Assembly (NCBI GenBank): GCA_023667315.1
Contig: JAMPAI010000007.1
Span: forward strand, 1-64,000
Origin: Ruminococcus flavefaciens
GTDB taxonomy: Bacteria > Bacteroidota > Bacteroidia > Bacteroidales > P3
DNA length: 64,000 nucleotides
Direction of reading: 5' to 3'
Positions 47,371 to 63,626 of the stretch are shown here, piece by piece. The position numbers and the translations under genes are program-made. The notes under the pieces are model-generated. The model was not told the DNA's origin, did not search any database, and saw only the letters and a program-made list of their open reading frames with translations. Every line of letters starts with the position of its first letter. The first letter of the stretch is position 1.

Positions 47371-47395
47371 TGCAGAAACAGCAAGCAAGGTGCCT

Positions 47396-49051
47396 ATGAC
47401 CATCAACGATATCAAGAAACTTATCGCTTCGGGCGAGTCGAGCACGCTGGAATTGAAGAAGACTACCGGCGAGTTGAAAGACGGCATGCATTCGGCTTGC
47501 GCGTTTCTCAATACGGGCGGCGGTTGGCTGATATTCGGCGTGACGCCCACGTCTTTGAAGATTGTGGGGCAGGAAGTGTCCGACAGAACACAGCGCGAGA
47601 TTGCGCAGGCATTGGCTGGGCTGGAACCGGCGGCAGACGTGCGGGTCGAGTATGTGGATGTGCCGGAACATCCTGGCAATAAGGTGATAGCCATGCACTT
47701 CGACGGTTGGGTGTGGGGCGAGCGTCCGCATACCTTTCACGGTTGCCCGTATTACAAAGTGGAAAGCACCACCAAGGTGATGCCGCACGAGGTGTATGAC
47801 GCCCGGATTCGTGCCTATAAGCCGCAGCAGTATGCATGGGAGCGGGAAATTGCCAACGGCGTTTCGATGGAAGACCTGAATGTAGACCGCATACGGGGGT
47901 GCGTCCGTGCCGGTGTGGAAGGCGGGCGTGTGCCGGAGAGTGCCATGAACGAACCCGTGGAGCAGATTTTGGCCAAGTGGCAGTTGCTTACCGACGGCAA
48001 GCCCAATAACGGTGCGGTGGTGCTGTTCTCCAACAACATATACGAATACCCGCAGTTCAGGCTTCGGTTGGCGCGTTTTATCGGTACCGACAAGAACGAG
48101 TTTCTGGATAATCAGCGGGTGGAGGGTAACTTTTTCGACTTGCTGGATGCCGGTATGGCGTTTTTCTTTAAGCATCTTCCGCTCAGCGGCAAGATTACGA
48201 ACCGTAGCCTGATGCGCGAGGAACGTCTTGAAGTGCCTTACCATGCGTTGCGGGAGGCGTTGATCAACAGCCTTTGTCATCGTCAGTGGGAAAACTATAA
48301 GCTTACCAATAGTATTGCCATCTACGACAACCGTATCGAGATTGCCAATCCCGGGGTGTTTCCGCCGCAGATTACTGCCGACACCATCAAGAAGCCGCAC
48401 GAATCGTATCCGTATAACCTTAAGATTGCCGAGGCCTTGTATAAGTCCAACTTGTTGGAAAGCTGGGGTTCAGGGGCAAGGCGCATTATGGATGCCTGTC
48501 GTGCTGATGGGGTGGAAGAACCGGTTTGGAGTTGGGACGGAGCTTTCGTAACGGTTACCTTCCGCCGTCCGCTAAAGTTTCAAGGAAAGGCCCTAAGTTC
48601 GCCCCAAGTTCGCCCTAAGTCCAGTCAAAAAAGCCCTAAGTTCGCCCTAAGTACCACCCAAGTACCACCCAAGTATGACCCAAGTACGACCCAAGTAAAT
48701 GAAGCGGTATTCGGTGGCGGTAATAGCGTCGGTAATAATGGCGGTAATGTTGTTGGTGGTCGGATGAAGAAGGCCCTAAGTACGACCCAAGTACGACCCA
48801 AGTACGACCCAAGTACGACCCAAGTACGAAAATTAATAATGGCTATGTCTCTGGAATATATGGATATTGCGGAAATAATGTCTGTTTGTCAATTGGTTAG
48901 TCGGAAGAGATTTCGCGAAAACTACATTGTTCCGGCTTTGGCGGAGGGGGCTATCGAGCGTAAATATCCGGAACAGCCGAAACATCCCAGGCAGCAGTAT
49001 AGGCTCACGGCCAAGGCCAAGGCGTGGAAAGCGGAACAGGAAGACCTATGA
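47396..49051 (+). CDS. AlbA_2 (Schlafen-type) domain ATP-binding protein
   Basis: 551 aa from the ATG at 47396 (a GTG two codons earlier is less likely). Residues 1-120 are an AlbA_2/Schlafen-like domain (SSTLELKKTTGELKDGMHSA, FLNTGGGWLIFGV). Residues about 285-390 resemble HATPase_c_4 (ALREALINSLCHRQWENYKL, IAIYDNRIEIANPGVFPPQ, NLLESWGSGARRIMDACR). A Ser/Thr/Gln linker made by 11-bp DNA repeats follows, then a C-terminal winged-helix-like region. Such proteins are predicted regulators. Its stop overlaps the response-regulator start (ATGA), so the two are translationally coupled. Confidence 0.88.
   Translation: MTINDIKKLIASGESSTLELKKTTGELKDGMHSACAFLNTGGGWLIFGVTPTSLKIVGQEVSDRTQREIAQALAGLEPAADVRVEYVDVPEHPGNKVIAMHFDGWVWGERPHTFHGCPYYKVESTTKVMPHEVYDARIRAYKPQQYAWEREIANGVSMEDLNVDRIRGCVRAGVEGGRVPESAMNEPVEQILAKWQLLTDGKPNNGAVVLFSNNIYEYPQFRLRLARFIGTDKNEFLDNQRVEGNFFDLLDAGMAFFFKHLPLSGKITNRSLMREERLEVPYHALREALINSLCHRQWENYKLTNSIAIYDNRIEIANPGVFPPQITADTIKKPHESYPYNLKIAEALYKSNLLESWGSGARRIMDACRADGVEEPVWSWDGAFVTVTFRRPLKFQGKALSSPQVRPKSSQKSPKFALSTTQVPPKYDPSTTQVNEAVFGGGNSVGNNGGNVVGGRMKKALSTTQVRPKYDPSTTQVRKLIMAMSLEYMDIAEIMSVCQLVSRKRFRENYIVPALAEGAIERKYPEQPKHPRQQYRLTAKAKAWKAEQEDL
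48595..48832 (+). repeat. 11-bp tandem repeats inside the AlbA-type gene
   Basis: Two clusters of AAGTACGACCC-type units: about nine, some degenerate, at 48595-48692 and four perfect plus a partial one at 48778-48832. Eleven is not a multiple of three, so three units encode an 11-residue peptide (KYDPSTTQVRP). Loss or gain of one unit would shift the frame before the C-terminal domain and the overlapping regulator gene. Confidence 0.9.
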
Positions 49052-50406
49052 AACCCAAACAAACCATCTTAGTAGTTGACGACAATGCGGGGGTGCTTAC
49101 GGCGGTGGAGATGCTGTTGCGGCCTTGCTTCGGCAAGGTCGTCACGCTTTCCGACCCCAACCGGATTCCCGCTGTGTTGCAGAGCGACAAGCCCGATGCG
49201 GTCTTGCTCGACATGAACTTTCACGCCAGCATCAATAACGGCAACGAAGGGCTTTTCTGGCTTCGGGAAATCAAGAAACGAAGCCCCTCCACCGAGGTGG
49301 TGCTCTTTACCGCCTATGCCGACATCGACCTGGCCGTGCGCGGCATTCAGGAAGGCGCGGCCGACTTCGTGGTGAAGCCCTTTACCAACGAGAAACTGTT
49401 GGCCAGCCTGCAAAACGCCTGCCAGCACAAGAAAGGCCATGAACCCAAGTCCGCCCCGGCATCCGTCTCCGACAGCAAACCCCCGTTCTTCTGGGGCAAG
49501 AGTGCGGCCATGGAACGGATTCGCCTGATGGTGGAGAAACTGGCCTCCACCGACACCACCCTGCTCATTACCGGCGAGAGCGGCACGGGCAAGGGCATGC
49601 TGGCGGCCGAGATTCACCGGCAGTCCGACCGCCACGGCAAACCCTTCGTGACAGTGGATATGGGCGCCATCACCGAATCGCTCTACGAAAGCGAACTCTT
49701 CGGCCATGTAAAGGGCGCGTTCACCGATGCCCGGCAGGACCGCGCCGGCAAGTTCGAGACAGCCCATCAAGGCACGCTTTTCCTGGACGAAATCGGGAAT
49801 CTTTCCTATCCACTTCAGGCCAAACTGCTTACCGCCCTGCAATACAAGAACATCGTGCGGGTGGGCAGCAACGAGCCCATTACTGTGGACGTGCGCTTTA
49901 TCTGCGCCACCAACCGCAATCTGTCCGATATGGTGAAGAAAGGCGAGTTCCGCGACGACCTGCTGTACCGCATCGACACCATCACCCTTCAGATACCCGC
50001 CCTGCGCGAGCGCAAGGAAGACATAGAACCCCTGGCCAAGATGTTTGCCGAACGCTACGGCGCCCGCTACGGAAAACCCGGCGTTTCGTTGAGCGCCGAA
50101 GCCTTGAACGCCCTTAAATCCTATGCCTGGCCGGGAAATATCCGCGAGTTGGAACACGTAATGGAACGCGCCGTGATTATGGCCGAGGGCGAGGTGCTGG
50201 GGGCGTCCGATTTCGAGCTGAACCGCAAGCCCGCGGCAGTGCAGGCCGATGCGGCGGAATCGGACGACATGCGTATCGAAGACATGGAACGCCTCATGAT
50301 TCAACGCGCCATCGCCAAGCACGGCGGCAACCTCTCGGCGGTGGCCAACGCGCTGGGCATCGCCCGTCAGACCCTCTACAGTAAAATCAAGAAATACGGG
50401 CTGTGA
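49048..50406 (+). CDS. NtrC-family sigma-54-dependent response regulator
   Basis: 452 aa from the ATG at 49048, overlapping the upstream stop. Receiver domain 1-120 with Asp11/12, phospho-acceptor Asp55 (LLDMNF) and Lys110 (VVKPF). AAA+ sigma-54 activator domain with Walker A GESGTGKG (176-183) and the sigma-54 loop as GAFTDA (223-228; classical GAFTGA). C-terminal Fis-type helix-turn-helix (NLSAVANALGIARQTLYSKIK). It should bind upstream palindromes and open sigma-54 promoters, the best candidate being 55326 before the TolC operon. The kinase gene overlaps its stop (TGATG). Confidence 0.95.
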   Translation: MKPKQTILVVDDNAGVLTAVEMLLRPCFGKVVTLSDPNRIPAVLQSDKPDAVLLDMNFHASINNGNEGLFWLREIKKRSPSTEVVLFTAYADIDLAVRGIQEGAADFVVKPFTNEKLLASLQNACQHKKGHEPKSAPASVSDSKPPFFWGKSAAMERIRLMVEKLASTDTTLLITGESGTGKGMLAAEIHRQSDRHGKPFVTVDMGAITESLYESELFGHVKGAFTDARQDRAGKFETAHQGTLFLDEIGNLSYPLQAKLLTALQYKNIVRVGSNEPITVDVRFICATNRNLSDMVKKGEFRDDLLYRIDTITLQIPALRERKEDIEPLAKMFAERYGARYGKPGVSLSAEALNALKSYAWPGNIRELEHVMERAVIMAEGEVLGASDFELNRKPAAVQADAAESDDMRIEDMERLMIQRAIAKHGGNLSAVANALGIARQTLYSKIKKYGL

Positions 50407-51560
50407 TGAAGTTGCGGGAAAAAATAAACCTGATGCTCGAAGCCGTGGAGAACGGCGACTACACCTTTCGTTTTCCCGAAAACAAGGGCGGCCGTCATCA
50501 TCGGGAATTCAACGCGGCCTTGAACCGCATCGCCCGTATCATTTCCGACACCAAGCAGGAGATAAGGCAGAACGAGATTTTCTACGAACAGGTGTTGCAG
50601 ACCGTGGAGACGGGCATTGTCGTGTTGGACGAAAGCGACGCGGTGGTGCAGTACAACAAGGCGGCCTCCAAACTGTTGGGCGTGAACATGCTTCGGGACT
50701 TGCGGCAGTTGGAGCGTTTGAGCGGCGATTTGGCCTCGGCCGTCTCCACGCTGGGGAACGGCGGTTCACAGACGGTTCAGATTCACAGCGAGCGCGGCAA
50801 GATACAGGTGGCGGTGCGGGTTTCGGAAGCGCAGATAGGGCAGAAGTGCTTGCGCATTGTGGCTTTGAACGATATCGAGAACGAGCTGGATGAAAAGGAA
50901 GTGGATGCCTGGATAAGGCTCACGCGGGTGTTGACGCACGAAATCATGAACTCGGTAACGCCCGTCACGTCTTTGAGCGATACGCTGTTGCACAACTACG
51001 CCGGCGGGGATGCCGCCCTGCGCACGGGCTTGCAGACGATACGCGACACGGGCAAGGGTTTACTCTCTTTTGTGGAATCCTACCGCAGGTTCACTCGTCT
51101 GCCCGAACCGGAACCGGCGCTTTTCTACGTGAACGCTTTTCTGAAACGGATGCTGGAACTGACGCGGCATCAGGCGGAGGATATGCCGGAAGTGGAGGTG
51201 AGGATGAGCGTGGAACCGGCCGATTTGATGGTGTATGCCGATGAACGCCTTATCGGGCAGGTGGTGCTCAACATCTTGAAGAACGCCCGTCAGGCCATCG
51301 GAAAGGAGCGTACGGATGGCAGGATTACGGTGCGCGCCTACGGCAATGAGTCGGGGGCGGTGCATATCGAAATCGGCAACAACGGCCCCAAGATAGATCC
51401 AGAACTGGCCGATGAAATCTTTCTGCCTTTCTTTACCACCAAATCCGACGGCAGCGGTATCGGTCTGGCGGTCTCCCGTCAGTTGATGCGCCTCTCGGGC
51501 GGTTCCATCAGCTTGAAATCGGATGATGAAAGCACCGTCTTTACCTTGCTGTTCCCGTAA
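50406..51560 (+). CDS. Soluble sensor histidine kinase
   Basis: 384 aa from the ATG at 50406. No transmembrane helix, so it senses a cytoplasmic signal or a membrane partner. A helical N-terminus (1-55), a PAS-like domain (FYEQVLQTVETGIVVLDESDAVVQYNKAA), phospho-acceptor His178 in RVLTHEIMNSVTPV, and an HATPase domain with N box VVLNILKNARQA and G box SDGSGIGLAVSRQL. It is the cognate kinase of the overlapping NtrC-type regulator. Its stop touches the stop of the convergent M20 gene with no gap. Confidence 0.95.
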   Translation: MKLREKINLMLEAVENGDYTFRFPENKGGRHHREFNAALNRIARIISDTKQEIRQNEIFYEQVLQTVETGIVVLDESDAVVQYNKAASKLLGVNMLRDLRQLERLSGDLASAVSTLGNGGSQTVQIHSERGKIQVAVRVSEAQIGQKCLRIVALNDIENELDEKEVDAWIRLTRVLTHEIMNSVTPVTSLSDTLLHNYAGGDAALRTGLQTIRDTGKGLLSFVESYRRFTRLPEPEPALFYVNAFLKRMLELTRHQAEDMPEVEVRMSVEPADLMVYADERLIGQVVLNILKNARQAIGKERTDGRITVRAYGNESGAVHIEIGNNGPKIDPELADEIFLPFFTTKSDGSGIGLAVSRQLMRLSGGSISLKSDDESTVFTLLFP

Positions 51561-53835: not shown

Positions 53836-55029
53836 TCAATACAGGGAGAATAAGCGCAGGCTTTTGGCCTTTAGGTTTTCTTCCGCTTTTACTTCAATGG
53901 GAATGATGCGGTTGCCGCGTTGCAGCAAGAAGTCGATTTCTCCGTCCGATTTATCGGAAGACCAATAGTAGATGCTTAAATCTTTATAGGGGCGTAACTG
54001 TTGCATCACATATTGTTCGGCAAGTCCGCCCTTGAAACTGCCAATCAAGTTATTTTGTTCCACGATAGCCTGCGCGTCTAATTGGCACATGGCGGACAAT
54101 AAACCGATGTCAAGCAGGAAGATTTTGAAAGTGGCCGGGTCTTCGTAGGCCTTCAGCGGCAATTCGCCTTTTTTTGTGCGGCTTACTTTGTAGAGCAAAC
54201 CGGCATCGAAAAGCCATTCCAAGGCCAATTCGAATTCCCTTGCCCTTGCGCCCTCGCGCACCAAGCCGTAAACAAACTTCTTGTTTTCCTTGGTGAGTTG
54301 TGAAACCACCGAATTCCATACCAACTGGATGCGAGGCACGAGGTTGAGCGGCGCATGTTTCGAGAAATCATTGTCGTAGGAATCCAATAATGCTCGCTGT
54401 ACATTTCTTACGGCAGCATAATCATTGGTCAAGGTAAAGGTTTCCACGCACTTGGCATGCCGCCCACGTAATAGTAGGTGCGGAGCAGACGGATGATTTT
54501 CTCTTTTACGGTCTTTATTAAATCCCACTTCTTTTCGGAAATGATTTTGGCCAACCGGTGATTGCCCGTGGCAAGGAGAAATTCTTCGAAATCCATAGGG
54601 AAAACATCCATGAAATCCACTTTCCCGGCAGGAAACGAATCTCCGCGATGCATGGCGATACCCAAGAGGGAGCCGGCGGCGATAACCGGTTGCGCGGGAA
54701 GTTTTTCGGCAAAAATACTTCAATGCCGTAATTCCATGTACGGCTTCTTGCAGTTCATCAAAAATGATAAGCGTGTCGGGTTTGATGTCAATGTCTTTTT
54801 GCACGCTGATTCTTTCGAGAATGCGCTGCATGTCGAAATCGGCCTCAAAAAGATCTTGCAAAGGCTTGTCATCTTCAAAATTGATATAGACAAAAGGAGA
54901 GCCGAGTGTTTCGGCAAAATGGTTTATGAGCCAGGTTTTGCCTACCTGCCGCGCCCCGCGTACAATTAACGGCTTCCGCGTTTTGGCTTTATACCAATTG
55001 ATTAAATCGTGGATGGCTTTCCTTTCCAT
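53836..55029 (-). pseudogene. DUF4143-type AAA ATPase with two compensating frameshifts
   Basis: The 397-codon frame starts well (LIVRGARQVGKTWLINHFAE Walker A, DTLIIFDELQEA Walker B) and ends well (DUF4143: YYWSSDKSDGEIDFLLQRG), but residues about 106-193 are out of frame. The true middle (LPAQPVIAAGSLLGIAMHRG, VDFMDVFPMDFEEFLLA, IIRLLRTYYYVGGMP) lies in another frame. The shifts are one extra base in an A-run at 54711-54715 and one lost base near 54453. Either a decayed gene or two assembly errors. Function of intact relatives is unclear. Confidence 0.85.
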
Positions 55030-55065: not shown

Positions 55066-55089
55066 TAAACATGGAATGGATTGCCAAAT

Positions 55090-55155
55090 ATTCGTCCGAA
55101 AGATGTGTGAGCCATACACAAAATTCGTCCGAAAAATGTGTAATCGATACACAAA
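55090..55155. repeat. Two 33-bp tandem repeats, each with a TGTGT-N7-ACACA palindrome
   Basis: Units 55090-55122 and 55123-55155 are adjacent and share ATTCGTCCGAAA and the arms TGTGT and ACACA (55104-55120 and 55137-55153). The palindrome centres are 33 bp apart, three helical turns, so they suit cooperative binding of a dimeric regulator. They lie just upstream of the DUF4143 promoter. Confidence 0.8.
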
Positions 55156-55232
55156 AAGGGCAGGAAATGGGCTTTGAGGGAAGCCATTTCCGGTGGTGTT
55201 CTTTTGAAGTGCGGGTGCATGGCGGCTTATGC

Positions 55233-55271
55233 TGTCTAATTTTTAGACAGCCGTTGTCTAAAAATTAGACA
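55233..55271. promoter_or_regulatory. Paired 17-bp palindromes, probable enhancer sites of the NtrC-type regulator
   Basis: TGTCTAATTTTTAGACA (55233-55249) and TGTCTAAAAATTAGACA (55255-55271) are perfect inverted repeats with 7-bp arms and 3-bp spacers, and each is the reverse complement of the other. Centres are 22 bp apart, two helical turns. They lie about 89 and 111 bp upstream of the start expected from the sigma-54 promoter, the normal place for activator sites of Fis-type NtrC proteins. Confidence 0.85.
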
Positions 55272-55325
55272 ATCTTTTGTAGTGGCTATTTTTTCTCTGT
55301 ATTGATTTTCTTTTAATTACATCTT

Positions 55326-55340
55326 TGGCACGCACTTTGC
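55326..55340 (+). promoter_or_regulatory. Sigma-54 promoter of the TolC-ABC export operon
   Basis: TGGCACG-CACT-TTGC matches the -24/-12 consensus TGGCACG-N4-TTGC fully, with GG (55327-55328) and GC (55339-55340) at correct spacing. Transcription should start near 55352, about 95 nt before the TolC ATG. An NtrC-type activator gene lies at 49048. Confidence 0.9.
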
Positions 55341-55446
55341 CATTAAATAGGAGCAGAGCTGATTAGGATAAGAGACGGAAGTTCTGGATTCGGAGCAGTT
55401 CGGATCCGGCTTCCGCTTCGAAATCCTTTTGAATTGACGCGAGAAA

Positions 55447-56805
55447 ATGAAAAGAGATAAGAGCTATGTTTTGGCGGCGCTCTGCCTTGCGCTCTGTTTC
55501 GCGACGGCAGGAACAAGGGCGTGGGCAAAGACGGAAGCGAATCCCGAAGCGCCCTCCCTCTGGACAATGGAAGACTGCATGCGTTTTGCCGCCGAGAATT
55601 CCTATGCGGTGAAGCGGCAACGCTACGAAACGGCTTCCTATCAGGCCGACCGCGACCAGGCCATCGCCTCCTTCTTCCCTTCGGTAAGCGGCAGTATCGG
55701 GGCGCAATACAGTTTCGGGCGCTCCATCGACCCGAGCACCAACACCTACAGCGAAGTCGGTCGAACCTTCTACAATACTTACGGGCTTTCGGCCGCGCTC
55801 CCCATCTTTAACGGCGGGCGTTACGTAAAGCAGTGGATGCTGGCATCCTCCAACCTGAAAATGGGAAGGAACGAGATTCAACGCTTAGAAGCTGAGGCCG
55901 CCATGAACGCGATGCAGGCCTTTGCCGATGCGGTGTATTACCGCGAAACGGCGCGGCTTTCGGAACTCAAGCTGCACGAGAGCGAACGCAATCTGCAAAA
56001 GGTGAGGCGAGAGGAGGAATTGGGACTGCGCGGCAAGGCGGACGTGGCCCAGTTCGAAAGCCAGGTGGCCGCCGACGACTACGACCTGACCCATCAGCAG
56101 AACCTTTACCGCACCGCCCTCCTGACCCTGAAGCAGGTGATGAACTATCCCGCGGGCAAGGAACTGGCCTTGGACAGCGTCCTGCCCGAAATTCCCCTGA
56201 CGGCCTTCGAGGAAGACGCGGACATGATCTTTGAACGCGCCCAGACCGCCAATCCCTCCGCCCTGCAGGCCAAATACCGCACAAGGGCGGCGCAACTGGA
56301 ATACAAGATGCGCATCGGGGCGATGATGCCCAACATCTACGTGCAGGCAGGCTGGAACACCGACTATATAGACGGCTACACCCAAAGTTTCAAGAAGCAG
56401 TTCCGCAACAACATGGGCGAATACGTGGCCGTGGGCGTGAACATTCCCATTTTCGACGGATTGAGCCGCAACACGGCCCTGCGCAAGTCGCGTAACGATA
56501 TGTTCATTGCCCGCGAGAACGAGAACGAATCGCTGCGCCAGCTGCGCGACCTCATAGATCAGGCCTTGATGGACTGCGAGGGCTATGCCAAGGAGGCCGT
56601 GCAGATGCAGCGCAAGGTGGAGAGCGACTCCCTTTCGTATAGGATTGCGCTCCGCCAGTACGAGGAAGGCTTGGTGACGCCCCTGGACGTGCAGACCCGC
56701 GCCAACGCGCTCCTGCAGTCGCAGGCCGAGTTTTTGCAGAGGGTTTTGATGCTGGAGATGCGGCGCAGGACGGTGAATTATTACAAATCAGGTTCACTTT
56801 ATTAA
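55447..56805 (+). CDS. TolC family outer membrane efflux protein
   Basis: 452 aa with a signal peptide (residues 1-28). Two structural repeats of long helices and short strands: LWTMEDCMRFAAENSYAVKR, FPSVSGSIGAQYSFGRSID, LSAALPIFNGGRYV in the first, PNIYVQAGWNTDY and GVNIPIFDGLSRNTALRKSRND in the second. It forms the outer-membrane duct of a tripartite exporter. First gene of a five-gene operon behind a sigma-54 promoter. Confidence 0.95.
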   Translation: MKRDKSYVLAALCLALCFATAGTRAWAKTEANPEAPSLWTMEDCMRFAAENSYAVKRQRYETASYQADRDQAIASFFPSVSGSIGAQYSFGRSIDPSTNTYSEVGRTFYNTYGLSAALPIFNGGRYVKQWMLASSNLKMGRNEIQRLEAEAAMNAMQAFADAVYYRETARLSELKLHESERNLQKVRREEELGLRGKADVAQFESQVAADDYDLTHQQNLYRTALLTLKQVMNYPAGKELALDSVLPEIPLTAFEEDADMIFERAQTANPSALQAKYRTRAAQLEYKMRIGAMMPNIYVQAGWNTDYIDGYTQSFKKQFRNNMGEYVAVGVNIPIFDGLSRNTALRKSRNDMFIARENENESLRQLRDLIDQALMDCEGYAKEAVQMQRKVESDSLSYRIALRQYEEGLVTPLDVQTRANALLQSQAEFLQRVLMLEMRRRTVNYYKSGSLY

Positions 56806-56816
56806 AATCAACGACA

Positions 56817-58067
56817 ATGGACATCATACTGGAAAAGAAAAAAGGTATCCGCAAGAAACACATCCCCTATATCGTGGGGGGCGGCGTGGTGCTGTTGCTC
56901 CTGCTGTGGGTGATTTTCGGCAACCATTCCTCCACCTTGCGGGTGGAAAGGCGCGGCATTTCGGTGATGGAGGTGACGCGGGGCGAGTTCAACGACTTTA
57001 TCCGTGTGGACGGGCAGGTTCAACCCATCGCCATCGTGCAGATAAGCCCTGAGGAAGGCGGCATCGTGCGCGAGAAAGTGGTGGAGGAAGGCGCGCAGGT
57101 AAAGAAAGGCGACGTGATCGTGCGGCTTTCCAACTCGAACCTGGAACTGCAGATTCTGGACGCCGAGGCGCAGCTGGCCGAGAAGCAGAACTTCCTGCGC
57201 AACACACAGGTGGCCATGGAGCAGGACAGGCTCAACAACCTTACCGAACGCCTGCAGCTGGATATGGAGATTTCGCGCAGCCGCCGCGCCTACGAACAGC
57301 AGAAACGCCTCTACGAAGAAGACTTGGTGGCCAGGGAAGTGTACCTCAAGGCCAAGGAAGACTACGAACTGGCCAGCCGCAAATACGGTTTGGTGGACCG
57401 CCGGCTCAAGCAGGATTCCCTTTCGCGCAGCATTCAGATGGAAGAGATGGAGAACAGTCTGGCCAACATGCGGCGCAACCTGCGTCTGGTGCGGGAGCGC
57501 AAGGCGCAGCTCGATATCCGTTCGCAGATAGACGGCGAACTGGGCTTGCTCGACGTGGAATTGGGGCAGAACGTGATGGCGGGGCAGAAGATAGGGCAGA
57601 TAAACGACCTTTCGGATTTCAAGATTCAGGCGCAGATAGACGAACACTACATAGACCGCGTACACACGGGGCTTACCGCCACCTTCGAGCGGCAGGGCGC
57701 GAGTTTCTCGCTGGCGGTGCGCAAGATCTATCCCGAAGTGCGCTCGGGCAAGTTCCGCACCGATTTCGTGTTCACCGATGCCCGCCCCGAAAACATACGC
57801 AGCGGTCAGACCTACTACATCAACCTCGAACTGGGGCAGAGCGCCGAAAGCGTGCTGATACCCAAAGGCACCTTCTTTCAGAGCACGGGCGGCAGCTGGA
57901 TCTACGTGCTGGACGCCGACGGAAAGAAGGCCTACAAGCGCAACATCCGCATAGGCCGTCAGAACCCGCAGTACTATGAGGTGCTGGACGGCCTGGAAGC
58001 GGGCGAGAAAGTGATTGTGTCGGGCTACGAAAGTTTCCGCGGGCACGACGTGTTGATACTGAACTAA
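56817..58067 (+). CDS. HlyD/MFP family periplasmic adaptor
   Basis: 416 aa. One N-terminal membrane helix (IPYIVGGGVVLLLLLWVIFG), a lipoyl-like half motif (ISPEEGGIVREKVVEEGAQVKKGD), a long coiled coil (about 105-230), the second lipoyl half (QIDGELGLLDVELGQNVMAGQKIG) and a C-terminal beta-barrel/MP domain (VLIPKGTFFQSTGGSWIYVL). It joins the inner-membrane ABC permeases to TolC. 11 bp behind tolC. Confidence 0.95.
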   Translation: MDIILEKKKGIRKKHIPYIVGGGVVLLLLLWVIFGNHSSTLRVERRGISVMEVTRGEFNDFIRVDGQVQPIAIVQISPEEGGIVREKVVEEGAQVKKGDVIVRLSNSNLELQILDAEAQLAEKQNFLRNTQVAMEQDRLNNLTERLQLDMEISRSRRAYEQQKRLYEEDLVAREVYLKAKEDYELASRKYGLVDRRLKQDSLSRSIQMEEMENSLANMRRNLRLVRERKAQLDIRSQIDGELGLLDVELGQNVMAGQKIGQINDLSDFKIQAQIDEHYIDRVHTGLTATFERQGASFSLAVRKIYPEVRSGKFRTDFVFTDARPENIRSGQTYYINLELGQSAESVLIPKGTFFQSTGGSWIYVLDADGKKAYKRNIRIGRQNPQYYEVLDGLEAGEKVIVSGYESFRGHDVLILN

Positions 58068-58086
58068 TCCCCCAAAAAACCATACC

Positions 58087-60483
58087 ATGAAAGATATACG
58101 GATGGCGTTCCGTACCCTGTTCAGGAAAGGCAGGTACAATGTGTTGAAAATCGTGTCGCTGGCCATCGGACTGGCGGTGAGCCTGATCCTGTTGGCGCAG
58201 GTGTTCTTTGAACGCTCCTTCGAGGCTTTCTGGCCCGATGCCGACCGGCTGTATATGATAGTGGACCGCTATTCGCTCAATCAGGAAGCCGAAAAGACCA
58301 CGTTCAAGGTGAGCGGCGGGGTGCCGGCGGGCGTGAAGGCCGAGATTCCGGGCGTGGAAGACGCCATCCGCTACACGCCCATCCTGGGGGTCAACACCGT
58401 CTTGGTGGACGAGGAGGGGCACCGCATCACCACCGACTTGCCCATCAATCTTGCCGACTCCAACTTTTTCGACCTGTTTCCGGTAAAACTGCTGGGCGGC
58501 GGGAATCCCAAGCAAGTGCTTGCCCGATTGACGGACGTGATGATTTCCCGCTCGCTGGCCGAGAAGTTGGGCGGTGTGGAGGCGGCCTTGGACAAACGGC
58601 TGTCGGTGGAGTCGATGGAGGGTTTGACCTTTACCGTGGGCGGCGTGTATGAGGATATGCCCGAAAATTCATCGTTCCGGCGCGACGTTATCGGTTCCTG
58701 CGGCCTGATGGGCGAGTGGAGCCTCGGTAACTGGGTGGGCAACGACCGCTATACGGGCGTGGTGAAATTGCAGGAAGGCGTTACGCCCGAATCCCTGCGC
58801 GGTGCCTTGGACGAGATGATGGCCCGCCATGTGGATCCGGAGGAACTGCACGCGGCGGGCTATTCGATGAAGTACGAACTGTGGCCTCTGCGCGACCGTT
58901 ACCTGATAAACGAGGATCTTCGCGCCCGCCATGCCATGATGCTTTTGCTGGCGGTGGCGCTGCTGGCCACGGCCATGCTCAACTACGCGCTCATCAGCCT
59001 CTCCTCCATCGTGAACCGGGGCAGGGAAGTGGCCGTGCACAAGACCTACGGGGCGGGGAAGGGCGCGATATGCCGCAAGGTGTTTGCCGAAACGGCGGTG
59101 CATACCCTGCTGGCCCTGTGCCTGTCGGCCTTGTTGGTGCTGGCCGCCCGCGGGTGGATATACGAACTGCTGGGGGTGAAGGTCTCCACCCTGCTGGGCG
59201 CGCAAAGCTCGTGGGGCGTGGTGGCGATATGCCTGGTGCTGATGTTCGTTACCGGCATCCTGCCGGGCGTGTTCATGGCGCGGATTCCGGTGTCGGATGT
59301 GTTCAGGCGTTTTTCGCAGAACAAGAAGACGTGGAAATCGGCCTTGCTGGCCGTTCAGTTCGCCGTGTTCGCCTTTTTGCTGTGCCTGTTGGTGAATGTG
59401 GGGCGGCAGTACCGCATGATGGTTTCCTACGACCCCGGCTACGAATTCGACAACCTGGCCTATTACGACATGAGCGGTCTGACGGATGGGGATTTGCGGA
59501 TGAAATTAGTGGACGGACTGCAGCGTTTGCCGCAGGTGGACAGGGTCAGTTGCGGGTCCGAGCATTTTGCGGGAGGCCTGATGAGCGGCAACAACATCTC
59601 GTTTCGCGAGAACAGGATTCGGGACTTGTTCAACGTGGCCGACCTTTATTATGTGGGCAACGGTTTCATACAGACCATGGGCATGCGTTTGGCCGAGGGT
59701 GGGCCTTTTACCGAAAACGTGACGAATTCCGAACAGATCATGGTGTCGGAATCGTTTGTGGAGAAGATGGGGAATTTCGCCGACTGGAGCGACGGGGCGG
59801 TGGGCAGGGAAATCTGCATTACCGAGCATAACCGCTGGGGCGATCCCTGCTACACGATATGCGGGGTGTATGAGAATGTGCTTTTGGGCGGTATCGGCGG
59901 GGAAGACCCGCGCCCGAGCGTGCTTTTCTACAGCAGCGACCCCTCTTGGTACACCTATCTCTGGGTGAGGTTCCACGAACTTACGGGGAGCAACCTTGCC
60001 AAGGCCGATTCCGCGCTGGCGGCCCTCTTGCCCGACCGCGAGGCGAGCCTGCGGCCCTACCGCTTGGATGTGGTGGAGCAATACCGGGAATCGGCGCGTT
60101 TCCGCGACAAGGTGCTGGCCGGCGGCGTGGTGTGCCTGCTCATTACGCTGATGGGTCTGCTGGGTTATATCAACGACGAGGTGACCCGCCGGCGCAAGGA
60201 AATCTCGATCCGCCGCGTGAACGGGGCGGACGAAAGCCGCATCCTGAAGATCTTTTCGCTCGACGTGCTTAAGGTGGCGCTTCCCGCCGCGGTGGCAGGT
60301 GCGGCGGCCTCCTATTGGGTGTCGTTCCGCTACCTGCAGCAGTTCTCGGTAAAGGTGTCGCTTTCGGCCTGGGTTTATCCCCCTGCCATCGCGGTGGTGC
60401 TGGCCATCGGCTACCTCTGCGTGCGCCTGCGTGTGCGCCTCTTCCTGCGCGAGAATCCCATCGAGGGCCTGCGCACCGAATAA
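58087..60483 (+). CDS. MacB/FtsX-type ABC transporter permease
   Basis: 798 aa. A double-length FtsX protein: first helix LKIVSLAIGLAVSLILLAQVF, a large MacB-type periplasmic domain (about 45-260), three helices (MMLLLAVALLATAMLNYAL, LLALCLSALLVLAARGW, GVVAICLVLMFVTGILPGVF), then a second unit with a helix, a second periplasmic domain and three more helices. REVAVHKTYGA and RKEISIRRVNGA are the cytoplasmic coupling motifs. It works with the ATPase gene 49 bp downstream to push substrate from periplasm to TolC. Confidence 0.93.
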   Translation: MKDIRMAFRTLFRKGRYNVLKIVSLAIGLAVSLILLAQVFFERSFEAFWPDADRLYMIVDRYSLNQEAEKTTFKVSGGVPAGVKAEIPGVEDAIRYTPILGVNTVLVDEEGHRITTDLPINLADSNFFDLFPVKLLGGGNPKQVLARLTDVMISRSLAEKLGGVEAALDKRLSVESMEGLTFTVGGVYEDMPENSSFRRDVIGSCGLMGEWSLGNWVGNDRYTGVVKLQEGVTPESLRGALDEMMARHVDPEELHAAGYSMKYELWPLRDRYLINEDLRARHAMMLLLAVALLATAMLNYALISLSSIVNRGREVAVHKTYGAGKGAICRKVFAETAVHTLLALCLSALLVLAARGWIYELLGVKVSTLLGAQSSWGVVAICLVLMFVTGILPGVFMARIPVSDVFRRFSQNKKTWKSALLAVQFAVFAFLLCLLVNVGRQYRMMVSYDPGYEFDNLAYYDMSGLTDGDLRMKLVDGLQRLPQVDRVSCGSEHFAGGLMSGNNISFRENRIRDLFNVADLYYVGNGFIQTMGMRLAEGGPFTENVTNSEQIMVSESFVEKMGNFADWSDGAVGREICITEHNRWGDPCYTICGVYENVLLGGIGGEDPRPSVLFYSSDPSWYTYLWVRFHELTGSNLAKADSALAALLPDREASLRPYRLDVVEQYRESARFRDKVLAGGVVCLLITLMGLLGYINDEVTRRRKEISIRRVNGADESRILKIFSLDVLKVALPAAVAGAAASYWVSFRYLQQFSVKVSLSAWVYPPAIAVVLAIGYLCVRLRVRLFLRENPIEGLRTE

Positions 60484-60532
60484 TCACGCAAAATCACAGA
60501 AACAGCAAATAAAAAACATAAAACATACGGAT

Positions 60533-61222
60533 ATGGAAGCAATGATCAAACTGGAAAATCTGAGCAAGGTGTTCCGCACCGAAGAAGTGGAAACCGTGGC
60601 CCTGAACAAGGTGGACATGGAGGTGAAGGAAGGCGAGTTCGTGGCTATCATGGGGCCTTCGGGCTGCGGGAAATCGACCCTGCTCAACATCATCGGGCTT
60701 TTGGATAACCCCACTTCGGGCAGCTACCGCCTGCTCGACCACGAGGTGGCCGCGCTCAAGGAAAGCGAACGGACGCGGTTCCGCAAGGGCAATATCGGCT
60801 TCGTGTTCCAAAGCTTCAACCTGATTGATGAACTGAATGTGTTCGAGAACGTGGAACTGCCTTTGCTCTACCTGAACATCAAGGCAAGCGAGCGCAAGGA
60901 AAAGGTGAATGCCATCCTGAAAAGGGTAGGGCTGAGCCATCGCGCCAAGCATTTCCCGCAGCAGCTTTCGGGCGGACAACAGCAGCGGGTGGCCATTGCC
61001 CGTGCGGTGGTGAGCAATCCCAAGCTGATTCTGGCGGACGAACCCACGGGTAACCTCGATTCCAAGAACGGCGCGGAGGTGATGAAGTTGTTGGGTGAAC
61101 TCAACGCGGAGGGCACCACGATCGTGATGGTGACGCACTCCAAGCACGACGCGGGTCTGGCACACCGGGTGGTGAACCTTTTCGACGGCAGTGTGGTGGC
61201 CTCGGTGGGCACTTTCGTGTAG
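60533..61222 (+). CDS. ABC transporter ATP-binding protein (LolD/MacB type)
   Basis: 229 aa from the ATG at 60533 (the open frame reaches 34 codons further into the preceding gene). Walker A GPSGCGKST (41-49), Q-loop FVFQSFNLI, signature LSGGQQQRV, Walker B LILADEPTGNLDS and H-loop VTHSK. It powers the FtsX-type permeases on either side of it. Confidence 0.97.
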   Translation: MEAMIKLENLSKVFRTEEVETVALNKVDMEVKEGEFVAIMGPSGCGKSTLLNIIGLLDNPTSGSYRLLDHEVAALKESERTRFRKGNIGFVFQSFNLIDELNVFENVELPLLYLNIKASERKEKVNAILKRVGLSHRAKHFPQQLSGGQQQRVAIARAVVSNPKLILADEPTGNLDSKNGAEVMKLLGELNAEGTTIVMVTHSKHDAGLAHRVVNLFDGSVVASVGTFV

Positions 61223-61274
61223 TCGGAAGGCGGCAGTTTCCGTAAGGTTTCACTTCACCTTTAAATTTACAGCC

Positions 61275-63626
61275 ATGATTAATTTTCATTCCTTTCTAAA
61301 ATTCTTGAACCGGAACAAGGTTTATACCGTCATCAATGTATTCGGGCTGGCCGTCTCGCTGATGTTCGTGATTCTGATTTTTGTCTATGCGTGGCAGGAA
61401 TTCACTGTGGATAAATTTCAGGCGGACAGGGAACGGATTTATGTAGAATACGATTTCGGGGCGGATGGCGAAGATGGGCCGGGCGACGGGCTTCCCGTGG
61501 CCTATTGGCTCAAAGAGCGTTTTCCCGACATTGAGGAAATCTGTCCGGTCATCACCACGCAATTCCACGGGGGCAAGAGCGTGATATGGCACGACACCAA
61601 GATAACCGCCAAGATGAGTTGTGCCGAAAGCAATTTCTTTACTTTCTTCTCGTTTCCCTTGAAAAGCGGCGCACCCGGGCAGGTGTTGCAGGATGAATAC
61701 AGCGCGGTGGTTTCCGAGACCTTTGCCCGAAAACTGTTCGGCAGCGAGGAGCCGATAGGGCAGAGTATCAAGATTAGCGAAGAAACTTCGGTAACGGTTA
61801 CCGGCGTGATGTACGACATTTCCCGTTCAGTGATTCCCTATGCCGATTTGATTGTGCGGGTGGAAAGGGCGGAGGAATTCAATCATTTCATCAGCAAGCA
61901 GAATGCCAGCAATGCCGGTGCCAGCGTGGTCTTTCTCAAGATGTATCCGGGCAAGGACATGAACGCGCATCGGGACGAAGTGTTGGAAATGTACAAGGAA
62001 AGGTATTGGATCTTTTACCGCGAATTTTGCACGGATGTGTGCTGGAAACCCTTGCGGGAGGCTTACTTCTCTGCAGGAGGCTCGTTGATAGAAACGGGCG
62101 ACAAACGTTTCGTGTCGGTGCTTTTTGCGGTGGGCTTGCTGATACTTTTCTTCGCCATCTTCAACTACATCAACCTTACCGTGGCCCAGTCGGGCAGCCG
62201 AGCCAAGGAAATGGCCACCCGCCGTCTGTTGGGTTCCTCGCGGGGCGGCATCGTGTTCCGCTTGGTGGTGGAAGCGCTCCTGCTTACGGCGGTTTCCTAT
62301 CTGCTGGCCTTGTTGTTGGCCACGGCGGTGAAGCCGGTGTCGGAACGCCTCTTGCAGACCACGCTCGACTTTTCGCTTCTGCTTTCGCCCGCCTGCATCG
62401 CCCTTGCCGTAGGCTTTGTGGTGCTGATAGGTGCGCTCACGGGCATCCTGCCTGCTGTCTTGATCTCGGCCGCCAAGCCGGTGGAAGTGGTGCGCGGCTC
62501 GTTCCGCCGCCGTTCCAAGATGGTGTTCAGCAAGTATTTTATCGGCTTTCAGAACGCCATTACCATTGTGATGCTGGCCGTTTCGTTGGTCATGGTGTTG
62601 CAGATGCGCCACCTGATACACGCTCCCTTGGGCTACAATACACTCAACGTAATTGATATTACGTATGTCTTAGGGGTTGACGACAAGGTATTGATGGACA
62701 AATTGTCTTCGGTACCCAGCGTAAAGCGGGTGGGAACCTCCCAAGGGACGCCTTTCGACGGGGGCAATAATAGTTCGGGAGACTATTGCGGCAGGCAGTT
62801 GTCGGTGCAGTGGATCTTTATGGATACGGCGGCTTTCCATATGTTGGGATTCCAGAAGGTGTATGAGAACTCCCGAAAGCAGACAATGCGTCAGGACGAC
62901 AGATATGATTTCGAAATTTATCCCACCGCATTTGCCATGCAGGAAATGGGCTTGCCCCAGGATGCTGACGAATTTGATTTGGGCGGACAGGAAAAGATTC
63001 CTGTTTGCGGGGTAATCGGCAATTTCAGAAGGGCTAATATCCTGAGAAAGGAACAGCCTTTTGTGGTGGGGGTGACAAACGACGTGTTAGAAGATGCGTG
63101 GAATCTCTTGGTGGAGGTGCAGGGCGATCCGGTAAGGGCGTACGATGAGGTGATGGGCGCGATAAGGGAACTTACCGACGGGGAAGTGGAGGCCAAGTTT
63201 ATCGACCAAGAGGTGCGGGAGTCGTTCGATTCGCAACGCCGCATGACGCAGATTGTGTCCATCTTCACCTGTATGGCCATCCTTATTTCGGTGCTGGGAC
63301 TGGTGGCGATGTCCATCTACTTTATCCGCCAGCGGGCGCAGGAAGTGGCGGTGCGCAAGGTGTTCGGCGCCGACAACCGCACGGTGCTCTTCCGCGTGGT
63401 GCGCTCGTTCCTGCTCTACGTGCTCTATGGCTTCGTGGTGGCCTTCCCCGTGTCGTGGTACATCGCGGTGAAATGGCGCTCGGGCTATTCCTACCGCATA
63501 GCCTTCAACCCGCTCTACATCGTGGCCGCCGGCCTCTTCTGCATGGCGGTCTCCTTCGTGGCCGTCTATTTCCAAAGCCGCCGTGCCGCCCACGCAAATC
63601 CTGTGGAGAGTTTGCGGGAGGTGTAA
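61275..63626 (+). CDS. Second MacB/FtsX-type ABC transporter permease
   Basis: 783 aa from the ATG at 61275; the frame is open 28 codons upstream inside the ATPase gene, so the later ATG is preferred. Same double-FtsX plan: VYTVINVFGLAVSLMFVILIFVY, a periplasmic domain, LFAVGLLILFFAIFNYINL with SRAKEMATRRLLGSSRGG, then a second unit ending with SIFTCMAILISVLGLVAMSIYF, AQEVAVRKVFGAD and two terminal helices. It is likely the partner or alternative of the first permease, the pair giving a hetero-dimeric transporter. Confidence 0.93.
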   Translation: MINFHSFLKFLNRNKVYTVINVFGLAVSLMFVILIFVYAWQEFTVDKFQADRERIYVEYDFGADGEDGPGDGLPVAYWLKERFPDIEEICPVITTQFHGGKSVIWHDTKITAKMSCAESNFFTFFSFPLKSGAPGQVLQDEYSAVVSETFARKLFGSEEPIGQSIKISEETSVTVTGVMYDISRSVIPYADLIVRVERAEEFNHFISKQNASNAGASVVFLKMYPGKDMNAHRDEVLEMYKERYWIFYREFCTDVCWKPLREAYFSAGGSLIETGDKRFVSVLFAVGLLILFFAIFNYINLTVAQSGSRAKEMATRRLLGSSRGGIVFRLVVEALLLTAVSYLLALLLATAVKPVSERLLQTTLDFSLLLSPACIALAVGFVVLIGALTGILPAVLISAAKPVEVVRGSFRRRSKMVFSKYFIGFQNAITIVMLAVSLVMVLQMRHLIHAPLGYNTLNVIDITYVLGVDDKVLMDKLSSVPSVKRVGTSQGTPFDGGNNSSGDYCGRQLSVQWIFMDTAAFHMLGFQKVYENSRKQTMRQDDRYDFEIYPTAFAMQEMGLPQDADEFDLGGQEKIPVCGVIGNFRRANILRKEQPFVVGVTNDVLEDAWNLLVEVQGDPVRAYDEVMGAIRELTDGEVEAKFIDQEVRESFDSQRRMTQIVSIFTCMAILISVLGLVAMSIYFIRQRAQEVAVRKVFGADNRTVLFRVVRSFLLYVLYGFVVAFPVSWYIAVKWRSGYSYRIAFNPLYIVAAGLFCMAVSFVAVYFQSRRAAHANPVESLREV

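Follow-up and report, generated by a model that had tools for sequence, protein, structure and literature searches.

A predicted sigma-54 control region with paired palindromes before a TolC–FtsX-type exporter operon, and differences in regulator and promoter type among its relatives

The segment 55233-55340 of the window (the whole 64-kb stretch of DNA analysed) is very probably, at roughly 0.9, the control region of the exporter operon located downstream of it, operated by a circuit composed of a histidine kinase, an NtrC-type regulator and sigma-54. Comparison with related genomes makes it likely that the paired enhancer of this segment represents a portable input module with two outputs: an AAA+ regulator combined with a sigma-54 promoter (the window and most relatives), or an AAA+-less receiver-Fis regulator combined with a primary-sigma promoter; regulator and promoter type would have changed together while rpoN was kept. 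The novelty of the system is in this joint change across relatives rather than in the window copy.

The candidate control region and the genes it connects

The features of the window are located as follows:

49048-50406, + strand: NtrC-type response regulator with receiver, sigma-54 AAA+ and Fis-type HTH (HTH_8) domains (Pfam)
50403-51560, + strand: cognate histidine kinase with PAS and HATPase domains (Pfam) and the H-box HEIMN, having no transmembrane segment
51561-53501, - strand: intervening gene, M20 peptidase fused to a GyrI-like small-molecule-binding C-terminus (Pfam)
53836-55029, - strand: intervening gene, AAA_14/DUF4143 ATPase (Pfam)
55233-55249, no strand: candidate enhancer site 1, TGTCTAA-TTT-TTAGACA, perfect palindrome with 0 mismatches
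55255-55271, no strand: candidate enhancer site 2, TGTCTAA-AAA-TTAGACA, perfect palindrome with 0 mismatches
55326-55340, + strand: predicted sigma-54 -24/-12 element TGGCACGCACTTTGC (TGGCACG-CACT-TTGC), 11/11 fixed positions
55447-56805, + strand: TolC-family outer-membrane protein, first gene of the exporter (Pfam OEP)
56817-58067, + strand: HlyD/RND-type periplasmic adaptor (Pfam; NCBIfam RND_mfp above the cut-off, DarC below it)
58087-60483, + strand: FtsX/MacB-type permease 1, ADOP-like but below the ADOP cut-off (Pfam, NCBIfam)
60533-61222, + strand: ABC ATPase (Pfam, NCBIfam)
61275-63626, + strand: FtsX/MacB-type permease 2, ADOP-like but below the ADOP cut-off (Pfam, NCBIfam)

The initial annotation had described two perfect 17-bp palindromes two helical turns apart, and this description is confirmed: neither site has a mismatch, and the centres (55241 and 55263) are separated by 22 bp, or about 2.1 turns. 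Site 1 can be extended to a perfect 21-mer (55231-55251) and site 2 to a perfect 19-mer (55254-55272). Their proposed location near -89 and -111 agrees with a transcript start predicted near 55352, some 12 bp downstream of the -12 box, and two tandem sites near these positions are what is expected for an enhancer-binding protein. One 7-3-7 palindrome alone has little meaning because the window contains six of them against a shuffle mean of 4.8. A pair of 7-3-7 palindromes with the same arms 16-44 bp apart is unique to 55233/55255 within the window, and no such pair occurs in any of 20 dinucleotide shuffles of the window. In the 2.93-Mb genome (88 contigs), the exact TGTCTAA-N3-TTAGACA is present at these two places only, so that the suggested search for further copies before other sigma-54 promoters gave no exact match beyond the window pair. 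Three further places appear if two mismatches are allowed, which is at the noise level since the reversed control pattern gave 13. Judging from these scans, the 49048 regulator most likely has a single target promoter in the genome, and the circuit would therefore be a dedicated one.

The -24/-12 element matches the consensus completely, as had been claimed, and its TGG is located 63 bp past the centre of site 2. Taken by itself, the box appears weak: an exact -24/-12 is present in 4 of 20 shuffles of the window, and the genome-wide scan for TGGCACG-N4-TTG returned seven matches versus five for the reversed control, hence no regulon can be drawn from it. The weight comes from position and conservation, i.e. 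from the combination. The composite rule learned from the relatives (two sites plus a -24/-12 element at +61 to +65) finds one match in the window, which is this promoter, whereas 262 kb of shuffled sequence from related loci contain no match. By its letters and fixed spacing, the segment has the -24/-12 elements and the geometry of a predicted sigma-54-dependent promoter.

The genome contains one rpoN (Sigma54_DBD, E 1.6e-52), which removes the absence of this gene as a ground for rejecting the circuit. The regulator has the domain set of an NtrC-type enhancer-binding protein (receiver, Sigma54_activat AAA+ and Fis HTH). These domains support its designation as the sigma-54 activator of the window, but the genome has two other strong activators elsewhere: the activator domain gives eight genomic matches, three of them strong (>220 bits; the window regulator and two on contig 10) and five at 20-35 bits. 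The AAA+ loop of the regulator reads GAFTDA rather than GAFTGA, which counts against this role. The same loop is found in all 25 regulators compared, including that of the window, and a wider set adds four with GSFTDA and one with GAFTGA; GAFTDA is, however, common to nearly all relatives, whose promoters retain the -24/-12 element. On contig 10, at L006 699-1859 (G000 contig 10), the open reading frame of a second sigma-54 activator seemingly ends without an HTH domain and adjoins an apparent ABC permease (both by eye), with a frameshift or truncation being possible.

The kinase was initially presented as soluble, and in the window it is indeed devoid of an N-terminal hydrophobic segment, a trait shared with the kinase of G147 (G numbers are our genome handles). 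However, this trait looks lineage-specific: hydrophobic segments above the threshold occur in 23 of 26 other kinases scanned, and the kinases of G151, G152 and G148 have segments just under it. Since the segment is absent here and present in most other kinases, the window kinase probably senses its signal in the cytoplasm, and the kinases of the relatives do so in or at the membrane. An AlbA_2 (Schlafen-like) gene at 47390-49051 of the window (+ strand) shares 4 nt with the regulator gene at its start codon; therefore, the regulator may be translated or transcribed together with it.

The exporter following the promoter was correctly described as a five-gene row, TolC/HlyD/FtsX/ABC/FtsX, at 55447-63626. 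With TolC, adaptor, ATPase and FtsX/MacB_PCD permease in one row, it belongs among the MacA/B-TolC-like tripartite FtsX-type ABC exporters. In contrast to MacB, permease and ATPase are separate proteins here. For both the adaptor and the ATPase, the NCBIfam model with the highest score comes from the darobactin exporter DarBCD (209 and 289 bits, respectively), while all scores are below the equivalog cut-offs (DarC 209/450, DarD 289/375, DarB 47 and 87/700 bits), and by that test this is therefore no darobactin exporter. The darobactin models as top matches hint at a peptide-like substrate; as a guess from the exporter class, an envelope-active peptide or a similar compound might be exported.

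We propose the following sequence of events. Upon a signal, the kinase 50403 would phosphorylate the regulator 49048, the Fis-type HTH of which would bind the two palindromes as neighbouring dimers, so that a regulator oligomer may form on the pair. The AAA+ ring would then remodel the sigma-54 polymerase waiting at 55326-55340, and transcription would proceed from near 55352 through TolC-HlyD-FtsX-ABC-FtsX.

Promoter geometry and gene linkage in relatives

A view of the window pair as a singleton was considered and rejected. The exact paired pattern matched only the window genome among 190 genomes of the family, because the half-sites have diverged in relatives, and the promoter alignment reveals the pair elsewhere: when 20 exporter promoters are aligned without gaps on their -24 boxes, the sites are in register, with only the right half of site 1 being clear in the TGTAAA-type group.

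In genomes with an AAA+ regulator, 29 of 31 promoters have a -24/-12 element (at least 8/11) at +60 to +65 from the centre of site 2, a count over related loci that are not independent, given with no phylogenetic correction and with many genomes being incomplete drafts. The box is at +64 in 17 promoters, at +63 in six, at +62 in four, and at +61 and +65 in one each, and the site spacing in promoters of this kind is 21-23 bp. The fit is 20/22 with the regulator on the same contig and 9/9 with the regulator on another contig. The two failures are G299 (11/11 box, pair not clear) and G310 (7/11); G553 is counted as a pass (8/11), although box and pair are both unconvincing there. Promoters with no regulator in the fetched locus fit in seven of eight cases, and G556 agrees with the looser pair rule only. 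The pair rule required TGT...ACA/ACG ends on site 2 and was adopted after wrong picks at G149, G144 and G026; in this stricter form it drops the G556 pair, and the first automatic picker passes 25 of the 31.

The promoter table was drawn from the following loci. Within the family, 21 of 24 TolC genomes were used, the omitted ones being G006 (TAG inside TolC) and G066 and G128 (contig ends). Within the order, HlyD was found at 75 places in 73 of 393 genomes, of which 30 were fetched besides that of the window. Of 33 regions fetched outside this family sample, 23 were used, the other ten having TolC not parsed beside HlyD or too short an upstream stretch (G380, G332, G388, G534, G501, G416, G293 contig 101, G276, G248 and G479 contig 54). 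Neither pair nor box was seen on parsing the short contig of G380 or in G332, which is outside the 31 and has only about 260 bp before TolC. A scan of whole loci detected the composite at G388, G293 contig 101, G276, G248, G066 and G128; it was negative at G380, G332, G534, G501, G416, G479 contig 54 and G006, and also at G126, G129, G122, G072, G299 and G553. Three loci at a greater distance (L039-L041) did not yield the composite; therefore, its conservation is established within the order alone.

The fixed distance also bears on another idea, namely that the two palindromes do not bind a protein but act at the RNA level, as a terminator or other structure belonging to the gene upstream. Judged by eye, a short hairpin rich in A/T could arise from either palindrome, but the gene just preceding the palindromes is on the opposite strand, and in relatives the sites keep their distance to the promoter, upstream of it, despite different flanking genes. 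We regard the probability of such a structure as negligible.

The regulator and the exporter are also linked by their occurrence. At thresholds of E <= 1e-80 for the regulator and E <= 1e-40 for TolC, both are present in 8 of 13 genomes of the genus and both are missing from the other five; among the 190 genomes of the family, the regulator is found in 22 and TolC in 24. The regulator is close to the exporter in further families of the order too, and in several relatives the two are neighbours. Together with rpoN and the 29/31 spacing, the pattern of eight genomes with both and five with neither supports the closed circuit that had been predicted, from kinase to regulator, palindrome, sigma-54 and exporter.

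In the window, two unrelated minus-strand genes separate the kinase from the exporter. They probably represent later insertions, since this gap is absent from G152, where regulator, kinase, promoter and TolC are contiguous and both intervening genes are missing, and has different contents in G151 (a DUF4143-type ATPase homologue only) and G147 (a gap of about 6 kb with neither of the window genes). The middle third of the DUF4143/AAA_14 reading frame (53836-55029) seems arginine-rich, unlike the rest, and is perhaps out of frame. A repeat of about 33 bp in two copies (TTCGTCCGAAAnATGTGT...ATACACAAAA, by eye) occurs at 55080-55155 of the window before this ATPase gene, and a similar repeat pair precedes the homologue in G151.

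The letters of the half-sites follow the recognition helix of the regulator, as far as can be read from the sequences: at least one TGTC half-site is found in 16 of 20 RQTLY-type promoters with a pair versus 1 of 10 RPTLY-type promoters, by our own reading and with the difference inflated by shared ancestry. This is relevant for the possibility that some other regulator (e.g. of the MarR, TetR or ArsR type) binds the palindromes and represses or tunes the exporter while the NtrC-type protein acts elsewhere. Perfect palindromes are typical of many dimeric regulators, and the genes between kinase and exporter vary among relatives, both of which would suit such a protein. However, the regulator recurring beside the pair has a receiver and a Fis HTH, it is with the recognition helix of this Fis-HTH regulator that the half-site letters change, and AAA+-less receiver-Fis proteins adjoin the same kind of pair. 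We therefore give very little credence to an unrelated dimeric regulator and retain the NtrC-type protein as the probable ligand of the pair.

Receiver-Fis relatives and primary-sigma elements

In two genomes of the same family, G009 and G116, a TGTCTAA-type pair precedes the same exporter (64% identity in HlyD), no -24/-12 element comes after the pair, and the divergent regulator is a 174-aa receiver-Fis protein. Receiver-Fis regulators occur also in eight of 15 genomes of the family f111 (G542, G398 and G479, then G586, G578, G581, G582 and G588). In each of these ten regulators, Pfam detected the receiver together with HTH_8 but gave no match to the sigma-54 activator domain.

All ten loci retain the pair, with the sites exactly 23 bp apart, and in all of them TAnnTTTG (the -7 box) begins exactly at +58 from the centre of site 2. 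A -24/-12 element of 8/11 was sought at +40 to +90 and found in none of the ten (best 7/11). The rule (spacing 23, TAnnTTTG at +58, no -24/-12) was set on G009, G116, G542 and G398, and all six other loci on which it was tried obey it. In addition, TTG begins at +35 in 10/10, a regularity seen post hoc and hence no prediction, with only the TTG of TTTG being scored. The G542 promoter was read before TolC, since more DNA separates the regulator and TolC there, and the stretch directly before its regulator shows nothing; in G588 and G479, where the exporter is outside the fetched stretch, the promoter was read from the region before the regulator.

According to the available part of a published description, the consensus of the Bacteroides primary sigma (sigma-ABfr) is TAnnTTTG at -7 with TTTG near -33 (PMC7366714), and by sequence the promoters of the receiver-Fis relatives have these sigma-ABfr elements. 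rpoN is retained in all ten genomes. One enhancer pair thus seems to serve two sigma factors, according to the presence of the AAA+ motor in the regulator: if recognition of the pair is the task of the HTH and the AAA+ domain works on sigma-54, the pair should be retained and -24/-12 should be missing wherever that domain is missing, which is the pattern of the ten loci. In the AAA+-less relatives, phosphorylated receiver-Fis dimers at the sites (placed by us at about -69 and -92) would recruit the primary-sigma polymerase by contact.

In most sigma-54 versions, the TTTGG that runs into the -24 box (CACG) is within 0-2 bp of the position of the primary-sigma TTTG, and both promoter types therefore overlay. 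G047 has both promoter elements complete, and G556 has both with a weaker pair; these overlaid promoters are possible intermediates.

Such an overlay raises the question of whether a primary (sigma-ABfr type) polymerase drives the window operon too, so that the palindromes would simply bind an activator or a repressor and the match to -24/-12 would be a coincidence. An exact box does arise in 4/20 shuffles, CATCTTTG at 55320 overlaps the -24 box and is one letter off TAnnTTTG, and the receiver-Fis loci have TAnnTTTG at the corresponding place. Nevertheless, only 1 of the 31 AAA+-regulator promoters has the exact TAnnTTTG at +58 (G047; G152 and G130 have it at +56), 29 of the 31 keep -24/-12, and the composite is unique in the window with zero matches in the 262 kb of shuffled loci. 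A primary-sigma promoter is thus quite unlikely for the window, and sigma-54 dependence remains the preferred reading of its promoter.

The receiver-Fis proteins group as one clade (100/99) placed inside the AAA+ regulators, and since the clade is single, the ten loci are not independent events. A tree uniting all full-length regulators has an AU p of 0.305 and hence is not rejected, so that the regulator type may have changed in either direction.

Relation to known systems

In the enteric NtrB-NtrC/glnA system, a kinase and a receiver-AAA+-Fis regulator act through paired palindromic enhancers located about 100 bp upstream of a -24/-12 promoter. The window resembles it in all these parts, and differs by the exporter as a target, the TGTCTAA-N3-TTAGACA site, the GAFTDA loop and, probably, the single target promoter. 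The receiver-Fis regulators of G009, G116 and f111 have the same domain layout as the RegA/PrrA/ActR-type regulators; unlike those, they stand in for an NtrC-type protein, the exporter and the type of DNA site being unchanged.

In Rhodobacter capsulatus and Caulobacter, NtrC has no GAFTGA loop and acts on sigma-70 promoters, as stated in the portion of PMC10274813 at hand. Like the receiver-Fis relatives, these proteins are members of the enhancer-binding family working with the primary sigma. However, from what this portion describes, they keep the AAA+ domain and lose the loop, while some relatives of the window (and not the window itself) lack the whole AAA+ domain. In the present loci, the difference is visible at a single exporter promoter, the enhancer pair of which is retained.

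For F. psychrophilum, the accessible sections of PMC9723704 describe a sigma-54 regulon of protein quality control, envelope stress and gliding motility genes with three predicted activators. A 2025 computational survey reported sigma-54 promoters before FtsX-like ABC permeases (COG0577) in Bacteroidia, which its authors claim as first evidence (PMC12316311, available in part). The statement of the initial annotation that sigma-54 control of FtsX-type exporters is little studied in gut Bacteroidota needs a qualifier, since this survey already ties sigma-54 to such permeases in Bacteroidia. In the available part of the survey there is no mention of a cognate regulator, an enhancer pair, a fixed geometry or a primary-sigma version. 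Among the literature matches listed, no paper deals with an enhancer-pair exporter circuit or with an AAA+-less switch in Bacteroidota.

In the window copy, the predicted sigma-54 exporter circuit is a clean one, and its near-ideal operator has no second copy in the genome; sigma-54 activation in Bacteroidota should therefore be easy to establish here. More weight attaches to the family of loci, a natural experiment where the DNA-binding module, the two sites and the regulated operon are constant while AAA+ motor and sigma factor vary jointly. With these loci, one can test how promoters pass from one to the other of two mechanistically unrelated sigma families; in the available part of PMC10274813, the examples concern the loss of the loop, not of the whole motor.

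Among the seven genome-wide matches to TGGCACG-N4-TTG, an identical TGGCACGCACTTTG box is located just upstream of dnaK (L088, G000:C11:306982-306995), the gene being named by eye from its N-terminus, which fits the reports of sigma-54-dependent chaperone genes in Bacteroidota cited in the accessible part of PMC12316311.
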